Positions 671 to 9,719 of a stretch of DNA of 64,000 nucleotides are shown here, piece by piece. Source of the DNA: Verrucomicrobiota bacterium. Its GTDB lineage: Bacteria; Verrucomicrobiota; Verrucomicrobiia; Opitutales; UBA953. A model generated the notes under the pieces. The model worked only from the letters and a program-made list of their open reading frames with translations, made no database searches and was not told the DNA's origin. The stretch covers positions 1 through 64,000 of the forward strand of contig BGOK01000013.1 in the NCBI GenBank assembly GCA_003569205.1. Reading direction: 5' to 3'. Position 1 is the stretch's first letter. Every line of letters begins with the position of its first letter. The position numbers were made by a program, and so were the translations under genes.

Positions 671-868
671 GCCACGGCGGCGACCCGTTAGGCTAGTTAG
701 GTTACGCGCGTGCGGGGAGCACGGATAGACCCTATCAGTTTTATCGATGCACGCCCGTCGCCAAGAGCATGGTATCCTACCACTCGATAGGTGCGACCCC
801 GCCGCTTACTTCTCCAATCCCCATAATCAATTAATCTCCAGTTACCCCAATTCGTTCTCTACACCCTG
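671..868. other. Non-coding stretch before the SEL1 array
   Basis: No convincing gene in these 198 bases. The only recognisable element is the first copy of the repeated upstream motif at 734-751. Together with 507-547, it completes a region of over 300 bases with no intact gene. Confidence 0.6.
734..778 (+). promoter_or_regulatory. SEL1-array upstream element, copy 1 (degenerate)
   Basis: The 18-base core ATCAGTTTTATCGATGCA (734-751) is identical to copy 2. A TATCCT hexamer follows at 773-778, one base further away than in the other copies. Where the others have ATG 6-8 bases downstream, this copy has ATA (787-789), so the next gene at 869 would be read from a roughly 80-base leader. It is probably the same promoter type, partly decayed. 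Confidence 0.55.
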
Positions 869-1459
869 ATGCTATCTGTCGGGTTAACTGGCTGCGTCTC
901 TGAAAGCGGTCGCCCAGATTACAAAGAAGCCAGAAGGTACGGCATAGAAGGCAGCCTGATTACCTTACCTTTTACTGGAATGTATCATCTCCTCAACTGG
1001 GCAGGGGGGAAGTACGTCGACAGGCCGCCTCCGCTGCCCGAGGAGCTGACCATGACCGTATTTGAATATCAGCAGATGGATACCGCGGCAAGGAAGGGCG
1101 ATCCGGTTGCGCAACACGCCGTTGGATTGTGTTATGCCAAGGGGAAGGCGGTCGTCAAAGACGAGGCCCTCGCGGTTGATTGGTACCATCGGTCTGCTGG
1201 TCAGGGCTATGGCCCGGCTTTTGTTAACCTCAGTGACTGCTACGCACAGGGGGCGGGCGTCACAAAAGATCAGGTCGAGGCCTACGCCTATGCACGGTTG
1301 GCCTCCCAGGTGGGCGCAGCTGGCCCGCAGAGCCTCGTTGAGATGGAAGGTCGGCTTACCCCGGGCGAGGTCGTGGCGGGCAGTCAACGGGCACTGGGCC
1401 TCTGGTCGGAGCTTATGCTTAAGGCCAAGTCACCACCTATCGACGAGGCGAAGCGCTAG
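869..1459 (+). CDS. SEL1-repeat lipoprotein, short signal peptide
   Basis: A 196-residue protein starting M-L-S-V-G-L-T-G-C. L-T-G-C is a good lipobox, but only eight residues precede the cysteine and there is no basic N-region. No ATG, GTG or TTG exists upstream in frame before a stop, so the true N-terminus may have been lost. Two SEL1-like repeats follow (about residues 68-140, V-A-Q-H-A-V-G-L-C-Y-A-K-G-K-A-V-V-K-D-E type). After them comes the C-terminal cap shared by this array (V-E-A-Y-A-Y-A-R-L-A, then L-T-P-G-E-V-V-A-G-S-Q-R). SEL1 repeats are helical protein-binding solenoids. It sits 23 bases upstream of a second SEL1 lipoprotein and is probably co-transcribed with it. Partners are unknown. 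Confidence 0.75.
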   Translation: MLSVGLTGCVSESGRPDYKEARRYGIEGSLITLPFTGMYHLLNWAGGKYVDRPPPLPEELTMTVFEYQQMDTAARKGDPVAQHAVGLCYAKGKAVVKDEALAVDWYHRSAGQGYGPAFVNLSDCYAQGAGVTKDQVEAYAYARLASQVGAAGPQSLVEMEGRLTPGEVVAGSQRALGLWSELMLKAKSPPIDEAKR

Positions 1460-1482
1460 ATACCCAGGCACTCCTGACACCT

Positions 1483-2142
1483 ATGGCACTTCATCATCTT
1501 CTACGGCAGGGTTTCTCCTGGTTAGCCGTAGGCCTGAAGGGGCTCGTGATGATGAGCGTGGTCACAGGGTGCGCGGACCGACGATTCAATGAGATGAAAT
1601 CCTTTAATTCATACGAGGATGCGATTAAACTCACCTTTATTACCCTCAATGAACTGGCACTCTTTATCCCTGAAACCGAGAAGCGCAAAGCCGTCGCCGC
1701 CCAGAAGGCCGAGGAACTATCTAAGGACCGTCGCTTTGAGGAATTGAAGGAGCTGGTGTCTAAAGGAGGCGCCGGGGAGCAGTACGAACTAGCGAATTGT
1801 TACTTTGATGGCCAGGGGGCGGTGCGCGATCTTCCGGAGGCGTTTAACTTGTATCGTCTGGCCGCTGGCCAAGGCCATGTTGAGTCCCAGAATAAATTAG
1901 GTATCTGCTACCATAACGGACATGGGGTTAAGAGGGATCAGCTTGAGGCGTGTGCCTGGTGGAGCTTGGTCGGTACGACGAACTTGCAAGCCCAGGCGAG
2001 CCTCGCCTTCGTCCAAGCCGATGAACTCAAGCGCATGACTCCCGCCGAGGGCCACCTCTTTACTCTAGCAGTCGCCCAACGGATGGACGAGCTACGCCAG
2101 GAGATAAGGCTGCGGGCCTTGTCAAACGGGCCCAGCCGTTGA
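1483..2142 (+). CDS. SEL1-repeat lipoprotein
   Basis: 219 residues. A signal peptide with a basic N-region (R8, K19) leads to the lipobox S-V-V-T-G-C (Cys30), so the protein is probably lipid-anchored. A charged helical linker (residues 60-95, rich in K/E/R) precedes two SEL1 repeats (Y-E-L-A-N-C-Y-F-D-G-Q-G-A-V and N-K-L-G-I-C-Y-H-N-G-H-G-V). The C-terminal cap is the family type: L-E-A-C-A-W-W-S-L-V-G-T, then R-M-T-P-A-E, then an amphipathic helix. It has no upstream-motif copy of its own and follows the previous gene at 23 bases, so the two look like one operon. The role is unknown. The shared caps suggest it arose by duplication within the array. Confidence 0.78.
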   Translation: MALHHLLRQGFSWLAVGLKGLVMMSVVTGCADRRFNEMKSFNSYEDAIKLTFITLNELALFIPETEKRKAVAAQKAEELSKDRRFEELKELVSKGGAGEQYELANCYFDGQGAVRDLPEAFNLYRLAAGQGHVESQNKLGICYHNGHGVKRDQLEACAWWSLVGTTNLQAQASLAFVQADELKRMTPAEGHLFTLAVAQRMDELRQEIRLRALSNGPSR

Positions 2143-2186
2143 GGCGCTTAAATGGGGGTAGTGTCACGGCTGACCAGATACCCAGC

Positions 2187-2230
2187 ATCAGTTTTATCGA
2201 TGCACCGAGGTTAACCAGATGTGTTATGGT
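2187..2230 (+). promoter_or_regulatory. SEL1-array upstream element, copy 2, leaderless promoter
   Basis: Core ATCAGTTTTATCGATGCA at 2187-2204, exactly 20 bases, then TATGGT (2225-2230), 8 bases, then ATG at 2239. With a -10 in this position transcription would begin at or next to the start codon. No Shine-Dalgarno sequence is present. Confidence 0.65.
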
Positions 2231-2238
2231 CATTCACC

Positions 2239-3087
2239 ATGACTCATAATTCTGATATCTGGTTCACAACGGACGGCCGTATAGGCCGTGAGAAATACTG
2301 GGGTATACAGGGGATTAATGCCATTCTCTGGATTCTTTTAGTGGTAGTGCGTTTCGCTGGTTCTTTTATCGCGGCTATGGCCTTGGGCCGTCACGGGGAG
2401 GCGGTCGGGATATTAATAGGTTTTGTAATCTCTGGTTTTCAACTCGCGCTCCTTTGGTGGTTACTAGCATATGGGGCGAAGCGTTGTCATGACCTCGGCA
2501 ACTCCGGCTTCTACCAGCTAATCCCCTTTTACTTGCTGTTTATGCTCTTCCAGGAAGGTGATGTCGGTGATAACTTCTACGGCCAGAATCCAAATAACAA
2601 AAATGGCCAGAATCCAAATGCCGTGGCCGGGATAACCGAAACGTTCAAGTGGTATCGCAATGCCGCGGCCGGGATGACTGAGACGTTCAAGTGGTATCGC
2701 AAGGCTGCCGACTTGGGGGATGCTGAGAGCCAATACAGACTGGGTGTGTGCTACGCCAATGGCAGAGGCGTGGCGAGGGATGAGGTCGAGGCGGTTAAGT
2801 GGTATCGTAAGGCTGCTGAACAAGGGTCTTCCCACGCCCAATACACTCTTGGGCTTTGCTACGCCAGCGGCATAGGCCTCGTTGCGCAGGATGAAGTCGA
2901 TGCGTATGCCTATTGGGACCTTGCCGGGATAACGAATGAATTCGCTCGCAATCACCTCGCCGTCCTCGAAAAGCAGATGACAGCCGACCAGATTGCCGCC
3001 GGGCAGAAGCGCTCGAAGGAATTACAGAAAGCGATCGAGGAGAAGATAGCTGCGAAGCAGGCGGTAAGTAAGCCCCCCCTCCCTTAG
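2239..3087 (+). CDS. DUF805 membrane domain fused to SEL1 repeats
   Basis: 282 residues from ATG 2239; a GTG at 2221 is possible but lies upstream of the -10-like hexamer. Residues 1-115 are a DUF805 domain: D-G-R-I-G-R-E-K-Y-W near the start, about three membrane segments, then A-K-R-C-H-D-L-G-N-S-G-F-Y and G-D-V-G-D-N-F-Y-G-Q-N-P. Residues 125-235 hold a duplicated 14-residue segment and two full SEL1 repeats. The array-type C-terminal cap follows (V-D-A-Y-A-Y-W-D-L-A-G, then Q-M-T-A-D-Q-I-A-A-G-Q-K-R). DUF805 is a small membrane domain of unknown function and a fusion to SEL1 is uncommon in my knowledge. By topology, SEL1 would sit on the same side as the DUF805 C-terminus. Neighbours are SEL1 genes with the same promoter element. 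Confidence 0.82.
   Translation: MTHNSDIWFTTDGRIGREKYWGIQGINAILWILLVVVRFAGSFIAAMALGRHGEAVGILIGFVISGFQLALLWWLLAYGAKRCHDLGNSGFYQLIPFYLLFMLFQEGDVGDNFYGQNPNNKNGQNPNAVAGITETFKWYRNAAAGMTETFKWYRKAADLGDAESQYRLGVCYANGRGVARDEVEAVKWYRKAAEQGSSHAQYTLGLCYASGIGLVAQDEVDAYAYWDLAGITNEFARNHLAVLEKQMTADQIAAGQKRSKELQKAIEEKIAAKQAVSKPPLP
2626..2709 (+). repeat. In-frame 42-base tandem duplication inside the DUF805-SEL1 gene
   Basis: Units 2626-2667 and 2668-2709 encode A-G-I-T-E-T-F-K-W-Y-R-N-A-A and A-G-M-T-E-T-F-K-W-Y-R-K-A-A. The copies differ at a few, mostly silent, positions, so the duplication is not brand new. It adds an extra half-repeat at the junction between DUF805 and the SEL1 solenoid. Confidence 0.8.
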
Positions 3088-3126
3088 CTCCCTCTGGCTT
3101 CCCCGCGGAGTTGGGTCCGGCGCCAG

Positions 3127-3319
3127 GATTGATAGCCCGTATTAGTTTTATCGATGCACCCTGGCGCCGGAACTATGTTATAGTTTTATTATGAAACCGC
3201 GCACCCCGGGTCTTTGGTTAATCGCCGCCATCATTGGTTTGCTCACGCAAATACCGACGTCGGCCTTTGCCGGGATGACGCCCGAGGAAGTGAAGGCCTT
3301 TGAGGGCTACAAGGCAAAG
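3127..3319 (+). repeat. Duplicated promoter-plus-signal-peptide segment, copy A
   Basis: This segment and 4165-4359 are close to identical across the upstream element, the first 30 codons and the E-E-V-K-A-F-E-G region. The start of both genes reads M-K-P-R-T-P-G-(L/F)-W-L-I-A-A-I-I-G-L-L. They differ by a 2-base spacing change just before the ATG (6 versus 8 bases after the -10). This is a fairly recent duplication of a whole expression-and-export cassette. Confidence 0.75.
3141..3184 (+). promoter_or_regulatory. SEL1-array upstream element, copy 3, leaderless promoter
   Basis: Core ATTAGTTTTATCGATGCA (3141-3158), 20 bases, TATAGT (3179-3184), 6 bases, ATG at 3191. It has the best -10 match of the set together with copy 4. 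No Shine-Dalgarno sequence. Confidence 0.65.
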
Positions 3320-4102
3320 GCGGAGAAGGGAAATGCCGAGGCCCAATACAATCTAGGGGAGAGCTACGACAACGGCGACGGCGTTCCGAAGGATGAGGTT
3401 GAGGGCGTGAAGTGGTATCGCGAAGCCGCGGACCAAGGGTATGACCGGGCCCAATTCATCCTGGGGGTGTGCTACGCCAGTGGCACAGGTGTGACGAAGG
3501 ATGAAGTCGAGGGCGTGAAGTGGTATCGGAAGGCCGCGGACCAAGGGCATGTGCGGGCCCAGCACAATCTGGGGGTGCACTACTACGAGGCGGAGGATGC
3601 GGTCGAGGCGGTGAAGTGGTTTCGCAAGGCCGCGGGTCTAGGGCTTGCCAGTTCCCAATACAATCTGGGCTTGTGCTGCGCCACCGGCCAAGGCGTGAAA
3701 AAGGACGCCGTCGAGGGCGTGAAGTGGTATCGGAAAGCCGCGGACCAAGGGCATACCGAGGCCCAATTCAATCTGGGGGTGTGCTACGCCAGCGGCAGAG
3801 GCGTAACTAAGAATGAGGCCGAGGCGGTGAAGTGGTATCGCAAATCTGCCGACCAGGGGTTTGCCAATGCCCAATACAACCTGGGGGTATGTCACGAATA
3901 CGGCACAGGCGTTCCGAAGGATTTGGTCGAATCGTATGCTTATTGGAGCCTCGCTGGCCGCACGGACGAGGATGCCCGCAAGATGCTCGCGGCCCTTGAA
4001 AAGATTTTATCTCCCAGAGACAGACTCCGCGGTCAGCAACGTTTTAAGGAGCTGCAGAAAGAGATCGAAGCTAATATGGCTACGAAGCCAGCTGGCAAGT
4101 AA
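3191..4102 (+). CDS. Secreted SEL1-repeat protein
   Basis: 303 residues. The signal peptide ends T-S-A-F-A before G-M-T-P-E-E, so export to the periplasm is likely. Six SEL1 repeats follow from about residue 45 to 260, each with the A-Q-Y-N-L-G-x-C-Y-x-x-G-x-G-V-x-K-D-x-x-E-x-V-K-W-Y-R-K-A-A pattern. The third repeat is about four residues short (V-H-Y-Y-E-A-E-D-A-V). The C-terminal cap is the array type (V-E-S-Y-A-Y-W-S-L-A-G, then L-S-P-R-D-R-L-R-G-Q-Q-R). Its promoter and first 40 codons are duplicated upstream of the next gene. Probably a periplasmic scaffold or binding protein; no enzymatic domain is visible. Confidence 0.85.
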   Translation: MKPRTPGLWLIAAIIGLLTQIPTSAFAGMTPEEVKAFEGYKAKAEKGNAEAQYNLGESYDNGDGVPKDEVEGVKWYREAADQGYDRAQFILGVCYASGTGVTKDEVEGVKWYRKAADQGHVRAQHNLGVHYYEAEDAVEAVKWFRKAAGLGLASSQYNLGLCCATGQGVKKDAVEGVKWYRKAADQGHTEAQFNLGVCYASGRGVTKNEAEAVKWYRKSADQGFANAQYNLGVCHEYGTGVPKDLVESYAYWSLAGRTDEDARKMLAALEKILSPRDRLRGQQRFKELQKEIEANMATKPAGK

Positions 4103-4164
4103 GGCGATTCTGGAGGCCCATTAGACCCCTCTGGCTGGCCGTCATAGGTGGGCTGACGCGCTCA

Positions 4165-4359
4165 GATTGATAGCCTGCATCAGGATTATCGATGCTCGCT
4201 AGCGCCGAATCTGTGTTATAGTTGTGTATTATGAAACCACGCACCCCGGGTTTTTGGTTAATCGCCGCCATCATTGGTTTGCTCTCGCAAATGCCGACGT
4301 CGGCCATTGCCGGGATGTCACCCGAAGAAGTGAAGGCGTTTGAGGGTCACAAGGAGAAG
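4165..4359 (+). repeat. Duplicated promoter-plus-signal-peptide segment, copy B
   Basis: Second copy of the segment described at 3127-3319. It precedes and begins the large SEL1 gene. Divergence becomes marked soon after the E-E-V-K-A-F-E-G codons. Confidence 0.75.
4179..4222 (+). promoter_or_regulatory. SEL1-array upstream element, copy 4, leaderless promoter
   Basis: Core ATCAGGATTATCGATGCT (4179-4196), 20 bases, TATAGT (4217-4222), 8 bases, ATG at 4231. The GA in place of TT within the core is shared with copy 5. Confidence 0.65.
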
Positions 4360-7023
4360 GCGCTGAAAGGCGACTTGAAGGCCCATTTCGACGTGGCCGC
4401 TTGCTATGCCCAGGGCTGGGGGGTGGCGAGGGATCAAGCCGAGGCAGTGAAGTGGGTGCGTAAAGCCGCAGACCAAGGATATCCCATGGCCCAGTTCAGC
4501 TTAGCTAATTGCTACGACAACGGTAACGGCGTCACGAAGGATCCGGTCGAGGCGGCGAAGTGGATGCGCAAGGCTGCTGACCAAGGTTTTGTCAGCGCCC
4601 AAAACAGCCTAGCGGCTTACTACGCCAACGGCAAAGGCGTGGCGATTAGTCAGGTCGAGGCGGCAAAGTGGTTTCGCAAGGCCGCTGACCAAGGAGATGC
4701 CGCTGCCCAGTATAACCTAGGGAGCTCCTACCACCTTGGCCGCGGCGTCGCGAAGGATGCGGTCGAGGCGGTGAAGTGGTATCGCAAGGCCGCTGAGCAA
4801 GGCGACCCGCCATCCCAATTCAACCTTGGGAATTACTACCTCAACGGAGAGGGCGTGGCGAAGGATGAGGCCGAGGCAGCGAAGTGGTATCGCAAGGCCG
4901 CTGACCAAGGACACCCCCAAGCCGCGCAGAGTCTCGATGCCTTGAGCCGTAAGACCCCGAGTAAGGGAACTCCCCCCGCCGAGAAGACCGTCACGACCCT
5001 GGACGGGGCACGCGTGGTCATTACCAAGAAGGGTAACGTCACCAACGTCGAAACAGTCGGAAACCTGAGCCCGAATAAGGCCTTCACTGGAAGTACTTTG
5101 GCAGCAATCAAACCGGAGAATAACCCGGTCGACCTACTTGTTCGCGCCGTCGAGCTTTTCCCTCAGAATCAACGTGCGGCTTATCAGCTTGGGCTAGCGG
5201 CCCGCCTGCAGTCGCAGTTTGACCAGAAACGGGTCGCTGACCGTTCGGCTCACCAAGCTTTTGGTGTCTTAACCATGCAGCCCGCCAATGAGCGTGTGTT
5301 GTCTTGGGGTGGGGGTAGTCAGACTATTGGGGCGGAAGACCATCGCGCGGTCTTGGAATGGGCACGGAAGTCGGGCCCGCCTACTTACCATCCGGCTTGG
5401 ATGATGCAGCATGGCATGGGCGCCTTCGGTGCCACTGGCCGCGCAGGCGGTGGCATAAGCGCCGGCTTCGTGGCCGCCACCGCTTGGTCAGAGGTACTCA
5501 ATGATTATGCCAAGTTTATCGACACGCCTTCTTTTTGGGTGACCCGTCAGGAACGGAATAACCCTGCAAATTTTCCAACTTTGCTTAAAGCGATGGAGTC
5601 GCGTTGCCTCAGTGAATTGGATTCCGGCCGCGCAGGAGATGTTGGACGGCAAAAGCTTCGTGCGGTCGTGGTGGGCTTTGATTTTAAAGCGGCCGATCCG
5701 ACACTGGCGTTACTGGATGCCCGTGATGCCATGCGCGCGATTGTCGCTACAGCCAACTCGACACCACCAGCCAGCGAGGAGGTTAAGGCCTTTGAGGCCT
5801 ATAAAGCAAAGGCCGAGCAGGGCCAGGCTGAGGCCCAATACCGTTTGGGTTTCATTTACGAAAGGGGACTAGGGGTGCCGGTTGATTATGTTGAGAAGGC
5901 GCGCTGGTGGCGGGCGGCGGCCGACCAAGGGCATGCCGGTGCTCAATTCAGTATCGGGTATTGCTATGGAAGAGGCGAAGGAGTGCCGCGTGATCTCAGC
6001 GAAGCAGCCAAATGGTTTCGCAAATCTGCCGATCAGGGGAACGCCTCCGCTTGTCGTTTTCTTGGCATCGCCTACGACCGCGGCCAAGGCGTTGGAATCG
6101 ATAAAATAGAGGCTTACGCCTTCTTGACGCTCGCTCTATCCGGCGACTCCTACGCTCGCGGGTATCTTGATAACATGGCCCTCGGGATGACCCCGGATGC
6201 CATCCAGATAGGAAAGCAACGCGCGCTGGAGCTTCAAAAGCAGATCGGCGCGAAGAAGACTGTTTCGACTGAACGTCCCACGGTCCCTTTGGGCTCTACG
6301 CCGCGAGTCACTGAGAACCCCGACAAGACCAAGGGTGAAACCGAGGGGGGTTATTTGAAGTACCTGCAAGACTCGGCTCAATCCGGCAAGGCAGGGGCGC
6401 AATACGCCCTCGGGCTGATCTACCGCACGGGTAGTCATGGGGTAAGCCAGGATATGCCGTTATCCGTCACTTGGTTTATCAAATCAGCTGAGCAAGGCCA
6501 TCCGAGGGCGCAATATTACTCAGGCCGATCCTACTTTGAGGTTAACGGTAGTCCCATCGGGGTGCCGAAGGACACGCGCAAGGCGGTCAGTTGGTGGCAG
6601 CAAGCGGCCGCACAGGGTGATGCCGATGCACAGGAGGCCTTAGGCTTTTGTTACGCCAAAGGCATTGGCGGTTTGGTTAAGGATGAGATCGAAGGGTATG
6701 CCTTTTATATTCTCGCAAGTCGTAGCAATGCCGCCGCCGTGGTTCGCCGGGAGGAGTTTGAGAATAGTTTGTCGCCTGACTCGCTACGGGCCGGTATGGC
6801 GCGATCAAAGGTTCTGCAGGCCGCGGTAGCACCGACAAGTGGACAGCCAGTCGCGCCTCAGTCGGCGACGCCCTTGACGGTTGGCCCCTCCGCTGTCTCC
6901 AGCCCTAAACCGTCTGCTCCTCGTACCTCCGGTGAAGACCTTGATGCAAAGATGGGGTCGCTCTTCGGCCGCAGGATGTCCGACGAGGAGAAGGCGGCGC
7001 CGAAGTCGGCAGGGCAGAAGTAA
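4231..7023 (+). CDS. Large multi-block SEL1 protein with an unknown central domain
   Basis: 930 residues from ATG 4231; a TTG at 4222 overlaps the -10-like hexamer and is rejected. A signal peptide ends T-S-A-I-A. Block A (residues 35-245) has five SEL1 repeats and a partial sixth. A central region (about 250-510) has no family I recognise: it starts T-V-T-T-L-D-G-A-R-V-V-I-T-K-K-G and later has W-M-M-Q-H-G-M-G-A-F-G-A-T-G-R-A-G-G-G-I-S. Block B (about 515-690) restarts with E-E-V-K-A-F-E-A-Y-K-A-K-A-E, has three repeats and ends in the array cap. Block C (about 700-880) has three more repeats and another cap. The tail is low-complexity P/S/A/K. The layout suggests fusion of several array genes. 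Likely secreted; function unknown. Confidence 0.8.
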   Translation: MKPRTPGFWLIAAIIGLLSQMPTSAIAGMSPEEVKAFEGHKEKALKGDLKAHFDVAACYAQGWGVARDQAEAVKWVRKAADQGYPMAQFSLANCYDNGNGVTKDPVEAAKWMRKAADQGFVSAQNSLAAYYANGKGVAISQVEAAKWFRKAADQGDAAAQYNLGSSYHLGRGVAKDAVEAVKWYRKAAEQGDPPSQFNLGNYYLNGEGVAKDEAEAAKWYRKAADQGHPQAAQSLDALSRKTPSKGTPPAEKTVTTLDGARVVITKKGNVTNVETVGNLSPNKAFTGSTLAAIKPENNPVDLLVRAVELFPQNQRAAYQLGLAARLQSQFDQKRVADRSAHQAFGVLTMQPANERVLSWGGGSQTIGAEDHRAVLEWARKSGPPTYHPAWMMQHGMGAFGATGRAGGGISAGFVAATAWSEVLNDYAKFIDTPSFWVTRQERNNPANFPTLLKAMESRCLSELDSGRAGDVGRQKLRAVVVGFDFKAADPTLALLDARDAMRAIVATANSTPPASEEVKAFEAYKAKAEQGQAEAQYRLGFIYERGLGVPVDYVEKARWWRAAADQGHAGAQFSIGYCYGRGEGVPRDLSEAAKWFRKSADQGNASACRFLGIAYDRGQGVGIDKIEAYAFLTLALSGDSYARGYLDNMALGMTPDAIQIGKQRALELQKQIGAKKTVSTERPTVPLGSTPRVTENPDKTKGETEGGYLKYLQDSAQSGKAGAQYALGLIYRTGSHGVSQDMPLSVTWFIKSAEQGHPRAQYYSGRSYFEVNGSPIGVPKDTRKAVSWWQQAAAQGDADAQEALGFCYAKGIGGLVKDEIEGYAFYILASRSNAAAVVRREEFENSLSPDSLRAGMARSKVLQAAVAPTSGQPVAPQSATPLTVGPSAVSSPKPSAPRTSGEDLDAKMGSLFGRRMSDEEKAAPKSAGQK

Positions 7024-7153
7024 GTCTCCACTGCCGTCATGACTACGCGCCGTTCGATTCCAGTTACCATCACCCTGTGGCTAGGTTGGGTGCGCCAACC
7101 GCTCAGCCGTAGTGAAGGATGAGTTCGATGACTACGCCAGGATGATGCCCACT

Positions 7154-7197
7154 ATCAGGATTAACGATGTACGCTGGCTACTCAGGTGTGTTACGGT
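7154..7197 (+). promoter_or_regulatory. SEL1-array upstream element, copy 5, leaderless promoter
   Basis: Core ATCAGGATTAACGATGTA (7154-7171), 20 bases, TACGGT (7192-7197), 8 bases (AATTCACC), ATG at 7206. The TTCACC before the ATG matches copy 2, and both copies drive DUF805-containing genes. Confidence 0.6.
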
Positions 7198-7205
7198 AAT
7201 TCACC

Positions 7206-7604
7206 ATGAGTAATCTATCTGGGATTTTCTCATTTAAAGGCCGAATCGGCCGTGGCGAATTCTTGGCCCATATTGCGGTAACTATTATTGTAATCGTATC
7301 GGGAATTACGGTTCTCTTTTCACCCCGCTTTTCGAGCCTCTTACCTGGTGGGGCCGGCGCAGCTATTTTTTACGCGTTCCTACTATTGGCCTTTTTTTGG
7401 TATATCCTAGCCTGCATGTCGAAGCGATGCCATGATCTTGGGAATCCAGGTATCTATATGCTAATCCCTTTTTATGGGCTGGATATGTTCGTCGGAGAGA
7501 GTGAATTAGGTGACAACGATTACGGCCCAAACCCGACAGGGGCTAATCGAGTTGACCCACGAGAGGGTGTAGTAAACAGCCAGGAGCCCCCAATCCCTGA
7601 CTGA
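7206..7604 (+). CDS. DUF805 family membrane protein
   Basis: 132 residues, close to the usual length for a stand-alone DUF805 protein. K-G-R-I-G-R-G-E-F near the start, hydrophobic segments at about 20-45 and 55-75, then S-K-R-C-H-D-L-G-N-P-G-I-Y-M-L-I-P-F-Y and E-L-G-D-N-D-Y-G-P-N-P. These are the family signatures also present in the DUF805-SEL1 fusion at 2239. It has the same upstream element and the same six bases before ATG as that gene. Integral inner-membrane protein of unknown role. The array context suggests it works with the SEL1 proteins, perhaps as the membrane half of a split version of the fusion. Confidence 0.85.
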   Translation: MSNLSGIFSFKGRIGRGEFLAHIAVTIIVIVSGITVLFSPRFSSLLPGGAGAAIFYAFLLLAFFWYILACMSKRCHDLGNPGIYMLIPFYGLDMFVGESELGDNDYGPNPTGANRVDPREGVVNSQEPPIPD

Positions 7605-8128: not shown

Positions 8129-8156
8129 TTGACGCAGCCCCTTGGGCTTGTATTAG
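8129..8156 (+). promoter_or_regulatory. Predicted leaderless promoter of the papain-like protease gene
   Basis: TTGACG (8129-8134), 16 bases, TATTAG (8151-8156), then AAAGGG and the ATG at 8163. The purine run touches the ATG, too close to act as a Shine-Dalgarno sequence. The array's ATCGATGCA element is absent here. Confidence 0.5.
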
Positions 8157-8162
8157 AAAGGG

Positions 8163-9719
8163 ATGCCCCTGACCACCCGCCCCTGGATTGTCGCCGTCCT
8201 TCTTGGTTTGCTGGCCCTGTTACCGGCATCGGGGCACGCAGAGATTACGACCGAAGACGTGAAGGCCTCTGAGGGCTATGAGGCAAAGGCGGACCAGGTC
8301 GAGAAGCCCGCCCACGCCGCTTACCCCCGGCCGTTTTCTCGGCCCAGTTCCATGGGGGCGGACTACGATACCTGGCGTGATGCCAAAGGCCCGGACATCG
8401 GCGAGACGGCCGTGGATATCAAGCGCTTGCCATCGCGCGTCGATAACTCCACCCGCCCGCAGTTCCCTCCTATTTACAAACAGAAAGGTGGAGCCTGTGG
8501 TCAGTTCACGTCGATCGCCTCAATCTTCACCTACGAAATGAACCTCCTGAACGGCACCGAGGCCAGCACCGAGGCCACGCAATTCCCTGCGGATTTCTCC
8601 TGGAACATGTGTAACGCGGCCAATAGCGCGCAAGGCTCGGAAGCGTATCATGGTTGGGAAACGGCCAAGCATATCGGCATCCCCACCGTCAAATCCTACG
8701 GCCGCGTGGAGGCAGACAAAGACAAGATTGGCACGTGGGCGAACGGTTACCCCATCTGGCGCGAGGCGATGGAGTATCGCGTCGCTGGCTATCGCTACAC
8801 CCCGACCGCCACCGTCTCTCAGATCAACGAAGCCCGCGGTTGGCTCTTCGATCGTAACCAACCCAAAGCCGGCAAAGCATCCATCGGTGGATTGCTGGCG
8901 CTGGACGGACGCATGGGTGAGCTCAAAAAGGTCACGCGGACGATTCCCGAAGGAGATTACCTAGCGGGCGAAGATGTCTGGATCCATTGGGGGCCGACCG
9001 GTTACGGGCACGGCATCACTTGTGTGGGCTACGATGACCAGGTCGGGTTTGATGTGAATGGTGACGGTAAAGTGACCAATGACAGCGACATCAACGGCGA
9101 TGGCAAAGTCACCCTCGCGGATCGGGAGCGCGGGGCTTTCATCGTGGTCAACTCATGGGGAAAGACCTGGTCGAAAGACGGTAAAATTTACCTGCTCTAC
9201 AGCGCGATGGTCGATCCCACTTGGCAACGCGGCAACTACCTCGGACGGATTGAGGTTACCCGGCATATTCCCCGCAGCACCTTGAAACTAAAGCTCGCTT
9301 GCAATAAGCGCTCGGACCTGCGGGTGACCATCGGCATCGCCGGCGACAAAGACGCCACGAAACCCGAACATGAACTCGCTCCGCAAGCCCTCAATGGCTG
9401 GCCGCTCTTTGGTAAGCCCAAGAATAACGTTGGCGAAGTCCCGCTCGCTGGACCAGGGGATGAAAGCCCGCTCGAAGTCGGCATAGACCTCACGCCCTTG
9501 CTCAGCAAGTTAGGCTCGAAGTCCGCGGGGGAAGGTCGTCTCTTCCTCAGCTTCAGTTCCGCGGAAAAAAGCGACGCTACTGGTGTGCTCCACGCGTGTG
9601 CCATCCGCCATTACGATGACAAAGGCGCCTTCATCCGAGAGTCCCTCATAAACGTTCAAGACGGCACCTTCGGCAAAAACACCCTCACGCTCACCACGGT
9701 CCTTCCCCGGCAGCGCTGA
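8163..9719 (+). CDS. Secreted papain-like (C1A) cysteine protease with calcium-loop insertion
   Basis: 518 residues. The signal peptide ends A-S-G-H-A. Catalytic motifs of the papain fold are in order: K-Q-K-G-G-A-C-G-Q-F (nucleophile Cys in a G-x-C-G context, with a Gln before it), Y-G-H-G-I-T-C-V-G-Y-D-D (His), V-V-N-S-W-G-K-T-W (Asn). Between His and Asn lie two dockerin/EF-hand-like loops (D-V-N-G-D-G-K-V-T and D-I-N-G-D-G-K-V-T), a plausible calcium site. About 160 C-terminal residues look like a beta-rich domain without a clear family. The signal peptide and first 20 mature residues (E-I-T-T-E-D-V-K-A-S-E-G-Y-E-A-K-A) align without gaps with the SEL1 protein at 3191. Probably an exported peptidase; substrate unknown. 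Confidence 0.82.
   Translation: MPLTTRPWIVAVLLGLLALLPASGHAEITTEDVKASEGYEAKADQVEKPAHAAYPRPFSRPSSMGADYDTWRDAKGPDIGETAVDIKRLPSRVDNSTRPQFPPIYKQKGGACGQFTSIASIFTYEMNLLNGTEASTEATQFPADFSWNMCNAANSAQGSEAYHGWETAKHIGIPTVKSYGRVEADKDKIGTWANGYPIWREAMEYRVAGYRYTPTATVSQINEARGWLFDRNQPKAGKASIGGLLALDGRMGELKKVTRTIPEGDYLAGEDVWIHWGPTGYGHGITCVGYDDQVGFDVNGDGKVTNDSDINGDGKVTLADRERGAFIVVNSWGKTWSKDGKIYLLYSAMVDPTWQRGNYLGRIEVTRHIPRSTLKLKLACNKRSDLRVTIGIAGDKDATKPEHELAPQALNGWPLFGKPKNNVGEVPLAGPGDESPLEVGIDLTPLLSKLGSKSAGEGRLFLSFSSAEKSDATGVLHACAIRHYDDKGAFIRESLINVQDGTFGKNTLTLTTVLPRQR

Follow-up and report, generated by a model that had tools for sequence, protein, structure and literature searches.

Class II activators take the place of the −35 box alongside an extended −10, and the nod box is a longer site than the one considered here, with two ATC-N9-GAT units. 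The term ATC-N9-GAT appears in papers on the nod regulon and on LysR sites (PMC5596368; PMC10100970; PMC11957545), and the primary site of LysR-type regulators is described as usually lying near −65 (PMC4834489). In acetogens, Pcauto has been presented as a new promoter motif of several essential genes, read by the housekeeping sigma factor together with a transcription factor, CAETHG_0459 (PMC6873888).

Here we describe an element that is a real promoter switch, a 31-base site lying where a −35 box would sit and most likely read by a LysR-type regulator. Judged from sequence comparison, repeat-protein genes and lipid-related genes share it in a bacterial group whose members are mostly uncultured, and it would represent an unusually placed LysR-type operator-promoter whose regulon goes beyond the gene array where it was noticed. 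The likeness to LysR systems lies in the candidate regulator, LTTR-1, which has HTH_1 and LysR_substrate domains, in an ATC-N9-GAT dyad that fits T-N11-A, and in a shared divergent operator plus unlinked further targets; the differences are that the site covers −60 to −30, whereas the LysR primary site is given as near −65 (PMC4834489), and that most targets of one class of sites (class A, defined below) look leaderless. The ATC-N9-GAT scaffold is also that of the nod box and NodD, although organisms and targets are others. With Pcauto/CAETHG_0459 as described (PMC6873888), the likeness is that of a new promoter motif common to several essential genes and of a housekeeping sigma working with a transcription factor, but that system relies on a TetR-family protein and another motif, and ours on a LysR candidate and leaderless targets. 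Leaderless bacterial genes are reported to have the same kind of −10-like signal immediately ahead of the start codon (Zheng et al., 2011, PMC3160421), whereas here the arrangement is tied to one upstream element, and the genome-wide leaderless signal is weak in the host genome.

The stretch of DNA analysed (the window) covers bases 1 to 64,000 of contig C13, from a genome of 2.23 Mb (G000). Rfam matches in it are limited to tRNA and SRP RNA. A run of genes coding for Sel1-repeat and DUF805 proteins is preceded by five copies of the element:

724..754, + strand: element copy 1, class A (GATA at 724; core 734-752; 37.2 bits)
773..778, + strand: −10-like TATCCT of copy 1, after TGG, spacing 20
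869..1459, + strand: Sel1-repeat protein, ATG 90 bases past the copy-1 −10
1483..2142, + strand: Sel1-repeat protein, own element absent, 23 bases after the preceding gene
2177..2207, + strand: element copy 2, class A (core 2187-2205; 42.4 bits)
2225..2230, + strand: extended −10 of copy 2, TGT-TATGGT
2239..3087, + strand: DUF805 and Sel1 protein, leaderless candidate, ATG 8 bases past the −10
3131..3161, + strand: element copy 3, class A (core 3141-3159; 47.7 bits)
3179..3184, + strand: extended −10 of copy 3, TGT-TATAGT
3191..4102, + strand: Sel1-repeat protein with signal-like N-terminus, ATG 6 bases past the −10
4169..4199, + strand: element copy 4, class A, GATGCTC (core 4179-4197; 50 bits)
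4217..4222, + strand: extended −10 of copy 4, TGT-TATAGT
4231..7023, + strand: large Sel1-repeat protein, 930 aa, ATG 8 bases past the −10
7144..7174, + strand: element copy 5, class A, GATGTAC (core 7154-7172; 39 bits)
7192..7197, + strand: extended −10 of copy 5, TGT-TACGGT
7206..7604, + strand: DUF805 protein, ATG 8 bases past the −10

All five cores lie where a preliminary description of this DNA had placed them (734, 2187, 3141, 4179 and 7154), and the pattern it gave, a core followed by 20 bases, TATRGT or TACGGT, 6-8 bases and an ATG, is present in four of the five copies, with the ATG at 8, 6, 8 and 8 bases. Copies 1 to 5 differ from ATCAGTTTTATCGATGCAC by 0, 0, 1, 3 and 4 mismatches, respectively. 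In copies 2 to 5 the −10-like hexamer stands exactly 19 bases past the 19-mer, counted from the C of GATGCAC or its variants (equal to 20 bases past the 18-mer of the preliminary description). Copy 1 is the exception, with TATCCT at a spacing of 20 and the next ATG of an ORF of at least 40 aa only 90 bases on; as it stands, this copy is not leaderless, and the gene at 869..1459 either is leadered or has a decayed promoter. The gene at 1483..2142 is probably carried on the same transcript. Leaderless expression through the element, as originally proposed, suits the four copies whose ATG lies about where transcription should begin, but not copy 1. The copies at 3131 and 4169 precede near-identical MKPRTPG-type genes, which fits a joint duplication of gene and promoter. 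The element as such extends beyond local duplication (76 matches against 2 for a control, see below).

The core is part of a longer element, GATR-N6-ATC-N9-GAT-KMACGC, which extends from −60 to −30 and is followed at a fixed distance of 19-20 bases by an extended −10, with no −35 box. The earlier view that the core is not itself a −35 box was right. In the 46 aligned sites of spacing 19, the −10 is an ordinary extended one, TGnTATnnT, with T and G at −15/−14 in 43 and 45 of the 46; conservation also extends outside the query, where the G, A and T at −60 to −58 (GATR spans −60 to −57) are found in 39, 44 and 44 sites. The search of the whole genome and of related genomes that had been suggested as a check located the element elsewhere in its own genome and throughout the genus: with at most three mismatches, the 19-mer gives 76 matches in 28 of 55 genus genomes, versus 2 for the reversed pattern. 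A −10 stands at spacing 19 (46 places) or 20 (10 places) in 56 of the 75 places inspected; the other 19 were dropped because no −10 scored at least 9 at either spacing, and at least one of them (L032, acpP) is probably a genuine site. In the host genome the exact 13-mer TTTTATCGATGCA occurs three times, always within the array, and its reversed control not at all.

A sequence-only profile (R1) was trained on 35 genus sites, class-B-like ones included, with four of the five window copies among them and copy 1 outside; in the window it scores the five copies at 37-50 bits and everything else at 4.7 bits or less. Seven strong sites are found in the host genome, five of which form the array, while the others precede acpP (C9:66351) and a gene for an exported protein with a Peptidase_C39_2 match (C8:46487). 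A weaker site (E 0.016), of class B, lies at C8:13571 between the LysR gene LTTR-1 and a gene for a CarF-like lipid desaturase, and a weak, partial match is present at a contig end (C16:53046). At E ≤0.001, the profile matches 29 of the 55 genus genomes, and 17 of 273 genomes drawn from the order (20 listed members of the genus and 253 genomes outside it), namely nine of the genus and eight of family f14.

We divided the sites into two classes by a tail rule of our own, applied to bases −38 to −32. Class A has GATGCAC and variants, mostly at spacing 19 with a TG-extended −10; class B has a GATTAAC tail, spacing 19 or 20, and in many cases GG in front of the −10. The two classes agree closely between −60 and −36. 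T(−49) and A(−37) of the T-N11-A dyad (ATC-N9-GAT) are invariant in 92 class-A and 57 class-B sites, which were chosen by a profile that favours these very bases. Counted from the −10, the dyad is centred at about −43 and not near the −65 of a primary site. A divergent arrangement with the LTTR-1 gene is seen in 36 of the 56 class-B sites with flank, against 2 of 101 for class A, both of which are f14 tail variants (AACTCAC) and not true class A. We also noticed a third tail (class C), GACATACGC, at a few sites before small membrane-protein genes (L144, L166, L167, L173). Two dyads 21 bases apart are present upstream of LTTR-1 in G002, G060, G050 and G049 (L202-L205), and a 22-base unit of the element is duplicated in tandem in G053 (L133).

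In the host genome LTTR-1 is encoded outside the window (G000:C8:12593-13507), and the protein consists of an N-terminal HTH_1 domain (PF00126, 48.8 bits, cut-off 26.6) and a C-terminal LysR_substrate domain (PF03466, 82.3 bits, cut-off 28). No curated LysR subfamily reaches its cut-off, the best being TIGR03339 (78.9 of 341 bits). All readable LTTR-1 proteins of the genus have the same recognition helix region, GISAAVRHIPYGIQQPAVSGQ. Of the readable LTTR-1 genes, 21 of 22 in the genus (one more gene being unreadable) and 10 of 11 in family f14 have the element divergently upstream, the G248 site of f14 being weak (4.5 bits). The element is absent upstream of a second LTTR-1 copy in G046, of both LTTR-1 relatives of genus g18, and of all 11 readable genes among 17 control LysR loci (four others had no start, one was cut and one had a misplaced start). 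The difference between LTTR-1 and other LysR genes gives a p of 1e-7, relatedness not corrected. Outside the genus, eight of the 253 drawn genomes carry the element, and all eight are among the 13 with LTTR-1 (p 3e-12, relatedness again not corrected); in G242, G248 and G132 (G132:C34) the site is on a different contig from LTTR-1. A scan of 84,980 species returned 72 stretches, 62 of them with Verrucomicrobiota titles, and at the Verrucomicrobiota class-B sites LTTR-1 is divergent at 58-155 bases in 21 of 28, whereas the gene on the opposite side varies. We take the ten stretches titled otherwise (Psychrobacter, Shewanella, Nitrosopumilus and others) as chance, about seven being expected by our own estimate. 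One record titled Akkermansia muciniphila (L267, L289; CALQLO) gives the same hits as G060 of the genus, and its title is probably wrong. Element, fixed spacing, spread and association with the LTTR-1 gene can all be read directly from the genomes, and LTTR-1 very probably reads class B.

LTTR-1 is also the best candidate for the reader of class A. It is present in 13 of the 21 class-A genomes of the genus versus 9 of the 34 others (p 0.01 over all 55, relatedness not corrected). Among genomes at least 91% complete, it occurs in 8 of 8 with class A versus 4 of 12 others, a cut-off picked after the data had been seen; at 90% the figures are 8 of 10 versus 4 of 12 (p 0.04). The eight class-A genomes with no LTTR-1 match (G012, G013, G016, G022, G047, G052, G053, G056) are mostly incomplete assemblies. 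Eight absences among the 21 genomes are more than the 3.1 expected from incompleteness alone (P for eight or more, 0.005). The gene adjoining the LTTR-1/CarF pair is present in G056 and G053 (95% and 72% identical), where the contig breaks off within it on the side of the pair; it was not found in the remaining six genomes (best 33-41% identity), so that a loss of LTTR-1 in these genomes is possible, not demonstrated. HTH_1 LysR genes of the host genome are of two kinds, with three matches, two of which are near-identical and located on C2 and C27. The second kind, of MHIENLKIF type, was rejected as class-A reader, being present also in the class-A-free G004, G048 and G019 and having no element upstream. 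By eye, these genes have a different, ATTAGATTTAGTAATCTAA-like palindrome directly upstream (L182, L183, L226, L228, L229, L231). The gene neighbourhoods on G000:C2 and G000:C27 (L182, L183) are the same apart from minor differences, pointing to a mixture of strains in the assembly. Weighing the shared positions, the near-complete genomes and the standing of LTTR-1 as the sole suitable LysR of the host genome against the missing matches and the cut or absent neighbours, we consider it the probable reader of class A, at clearly lower confidence than for class B.

Leaderless transcription is likely in class A, as 71 of 94 sites have a start codon (ORF of at least 40 aa) 5-8 bases past the −10, 41 of them at exactly 8 bases when the first ATG is counted. 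The same test moved 100 bases downstream gives 21 of 94, since the shifted position then lies within genes. For class B the picture is less uniform, with 7 of 35 sites. In G017, two Sel1 genes that lack the element have TTGACG-N17 and then TAATAG or TATCTC 5-6 bases before the ATG, and in the window itself the gene at 8163 (region 8129-8163) has TTGACG-N16-TATTAG and an ATG 6 bases on, with no element. This last gene codes for a protein of 518 aa that has an N-terminus like those of the Sel1 array and no Pfam or NCBIfam match. As element-free genes also start 5-6 bases past a −10-like hexamer, the start arrangement seems independent of the element, and the idea that leaderlessness is tied to the element alone had to be given up. 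Genome-wide, the leaderless signal of the host is weak, 8 of 140 genes having TAnnnT at a distance of 4-8 bases ahead of their first ATG versus 5.8 expected, with crude gene starts. Shine-Dalgarno-like tetramers precede 12 of 140 genes of a 200-kb stretch and 1 of the 45 window genes outside the array.

The mechanism that we infer comprises binding and activation by LTTR-1, its reading of class A, leaderless starts and autoregulation. Each copy would be an activator-dependent promoter of the housekeeping (sigma-70-type) polymerase, where LTTR-1 would bind GATR-N6-ATC-N9-GAT-KMACGC at −60 to −30 in place of a −35 box and recruit RNA polymerase to the extended −10 (TGnTATnnT). At four of the five window copies transcription would start from the ATG or a few bases off, so that the mRNAs would have no leader or almost none. 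Given the class-B element in its own divergent promoter region, LTTR-1 probably controls its own gene as well as the divergent one. The class-A promoter has apparently spread in part of the genus, both along with duplicated Sel1/DUF805 genes and to a relocated acpP. The preliminary description had left a choice between an operator, an activator site and an alternative sigma site; the evidence favours an operator or activator site, since in two families the element is found again at the divergent promoter of a single LysR gene, and an alternative sigma is not needed, the −10 being an ordinary extended one.

Promoters activated by LTTR-1 and lacking a −35 box are, on balance and with moderate confidence, our best explanation for all copies. 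The most serious rival, which we find rather unlikely, is that a different activator, perhaps a usurper of LTTR-1-like sites, reads class A and leaves class B alone to LTTR-1. It would explain why the tails differ (GATGCAC-like versus GATTAAC), why class A has spacing 19 and a TG-extended −10 where class B often has spacing 20 and no TG, and why LTTR-1 is undetected in eight class-A genomes; but the agreement from −60 to −36 and the presence of LTTR-1 in every class-A genome of at least 91% completeness argue against it, and a non-systematic look at the neighbours recognised no regulator gene beside class-A sites. Repression by LTTR-1 is another alternative to simple activation: the site overlaps the −35 position, and LysR proteins are described as usually repressing their own gene (PMC4834489), so that the element could be a repression operator, or one for ligand-dependent repression and activation, instead of a simple activator site. 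We consider this very improbable, as class-A promoters offer no −35 box to an unaided polymerase, whereas their element-free Sel1 relatives in G017 carry TTGACG.

The rigid spacing of 19-20 bases might also recall an alternative sigma factor, the element then being its −35 region, with a long spacer and a −10 of TATRnT. This, too, is very improbable, as 31 conserved bases reach to −60, past the reach of a sigma −35 contact, the −10 is standard, and the ATC-N9-GAT dyad and the position upstream of a LysR gene speak against it. Least credible are copies with no control role, either hitchhiking remnants of a recent tandem duplication, as the near-identical genes behind the copies at 3131 and 4169 could suggest, or a recombination or cassette site: the same element with its fixed −10 spacing precedes unrelated genes in many genomes, its flanks and spacer have diverged, and the 76 versus 2 matches contradict such a reading.

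Targets of the element extend well past the array. When the downstream proteins are clustered, the largest group comprises Sel1/DUF805 proteins and proteins with similar N-termini; further targets are a CarF-like lipid desaturase (PF10520), a thioredoxin-like protein and an Rce1-like protease with a zinc ribbon, and several target families have no Pfam match. Among the targets in f14 and other Opitutaceae are rhombotarget lipoproteins (TIGR04179, scoring above the cut-off) and LplT-like transporters, whose matches (E 1e-59 and better) stay below the curated cut-off. A regulon dedicated to the array, as first suggested, does not agree with the same promoter class standing before acpP, the thioredoxin-like protein, the Rce1-like protease and others. 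At the 12 acpP sites the start codon lies 93-144 bases past the −10. Eight of 26 readable acpP loci (L311-L340) have the element, and in the 18 without it the preceding sequence resembles, by eye, the terminal part of a fabG-type gene; this promoter seems to have reached acpP with a change of gene place. Where acpP has a class-A promoter, the gene appears detached from its usual upstream gene. A lipid and envelope theme may unite these targets. In the open-access literature we found no description of Sel1/DUF805 control, no paper treating DUF805 with Sel1, and none that brings together Opitutaceae, LysR and regulon.

We tentatively propose, as a possibility that is as yet some way from probable, that a LysR-type regulator of Opitutae/Opitutaceae activates leaderless promoters in place of a −35 box and governs a regulon of membrane-lipid and envelope genes, which might include acyl carrier protein, a plasmanyl-lipid desaturase relative, an LplT-like lysophospholipid transporter, rhombotarget lipoproteins and DUF805/Sel1 proteins. 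Its operator-promoter unit would travel with genes, and would have captured the essential acpP when this left its ancestral place. This would be a clear case of a regulon grown from what seems to be one self-linked site to about ten sites per genome. It equips a promoter class of bacteria seen mainly in metagenomes with a candidate regulator, a precise DNA site and a list of targets, gives a first handle on the Sel1/DUF805 proteins, and makes the link between LysR control and leaderless starts directly testable.
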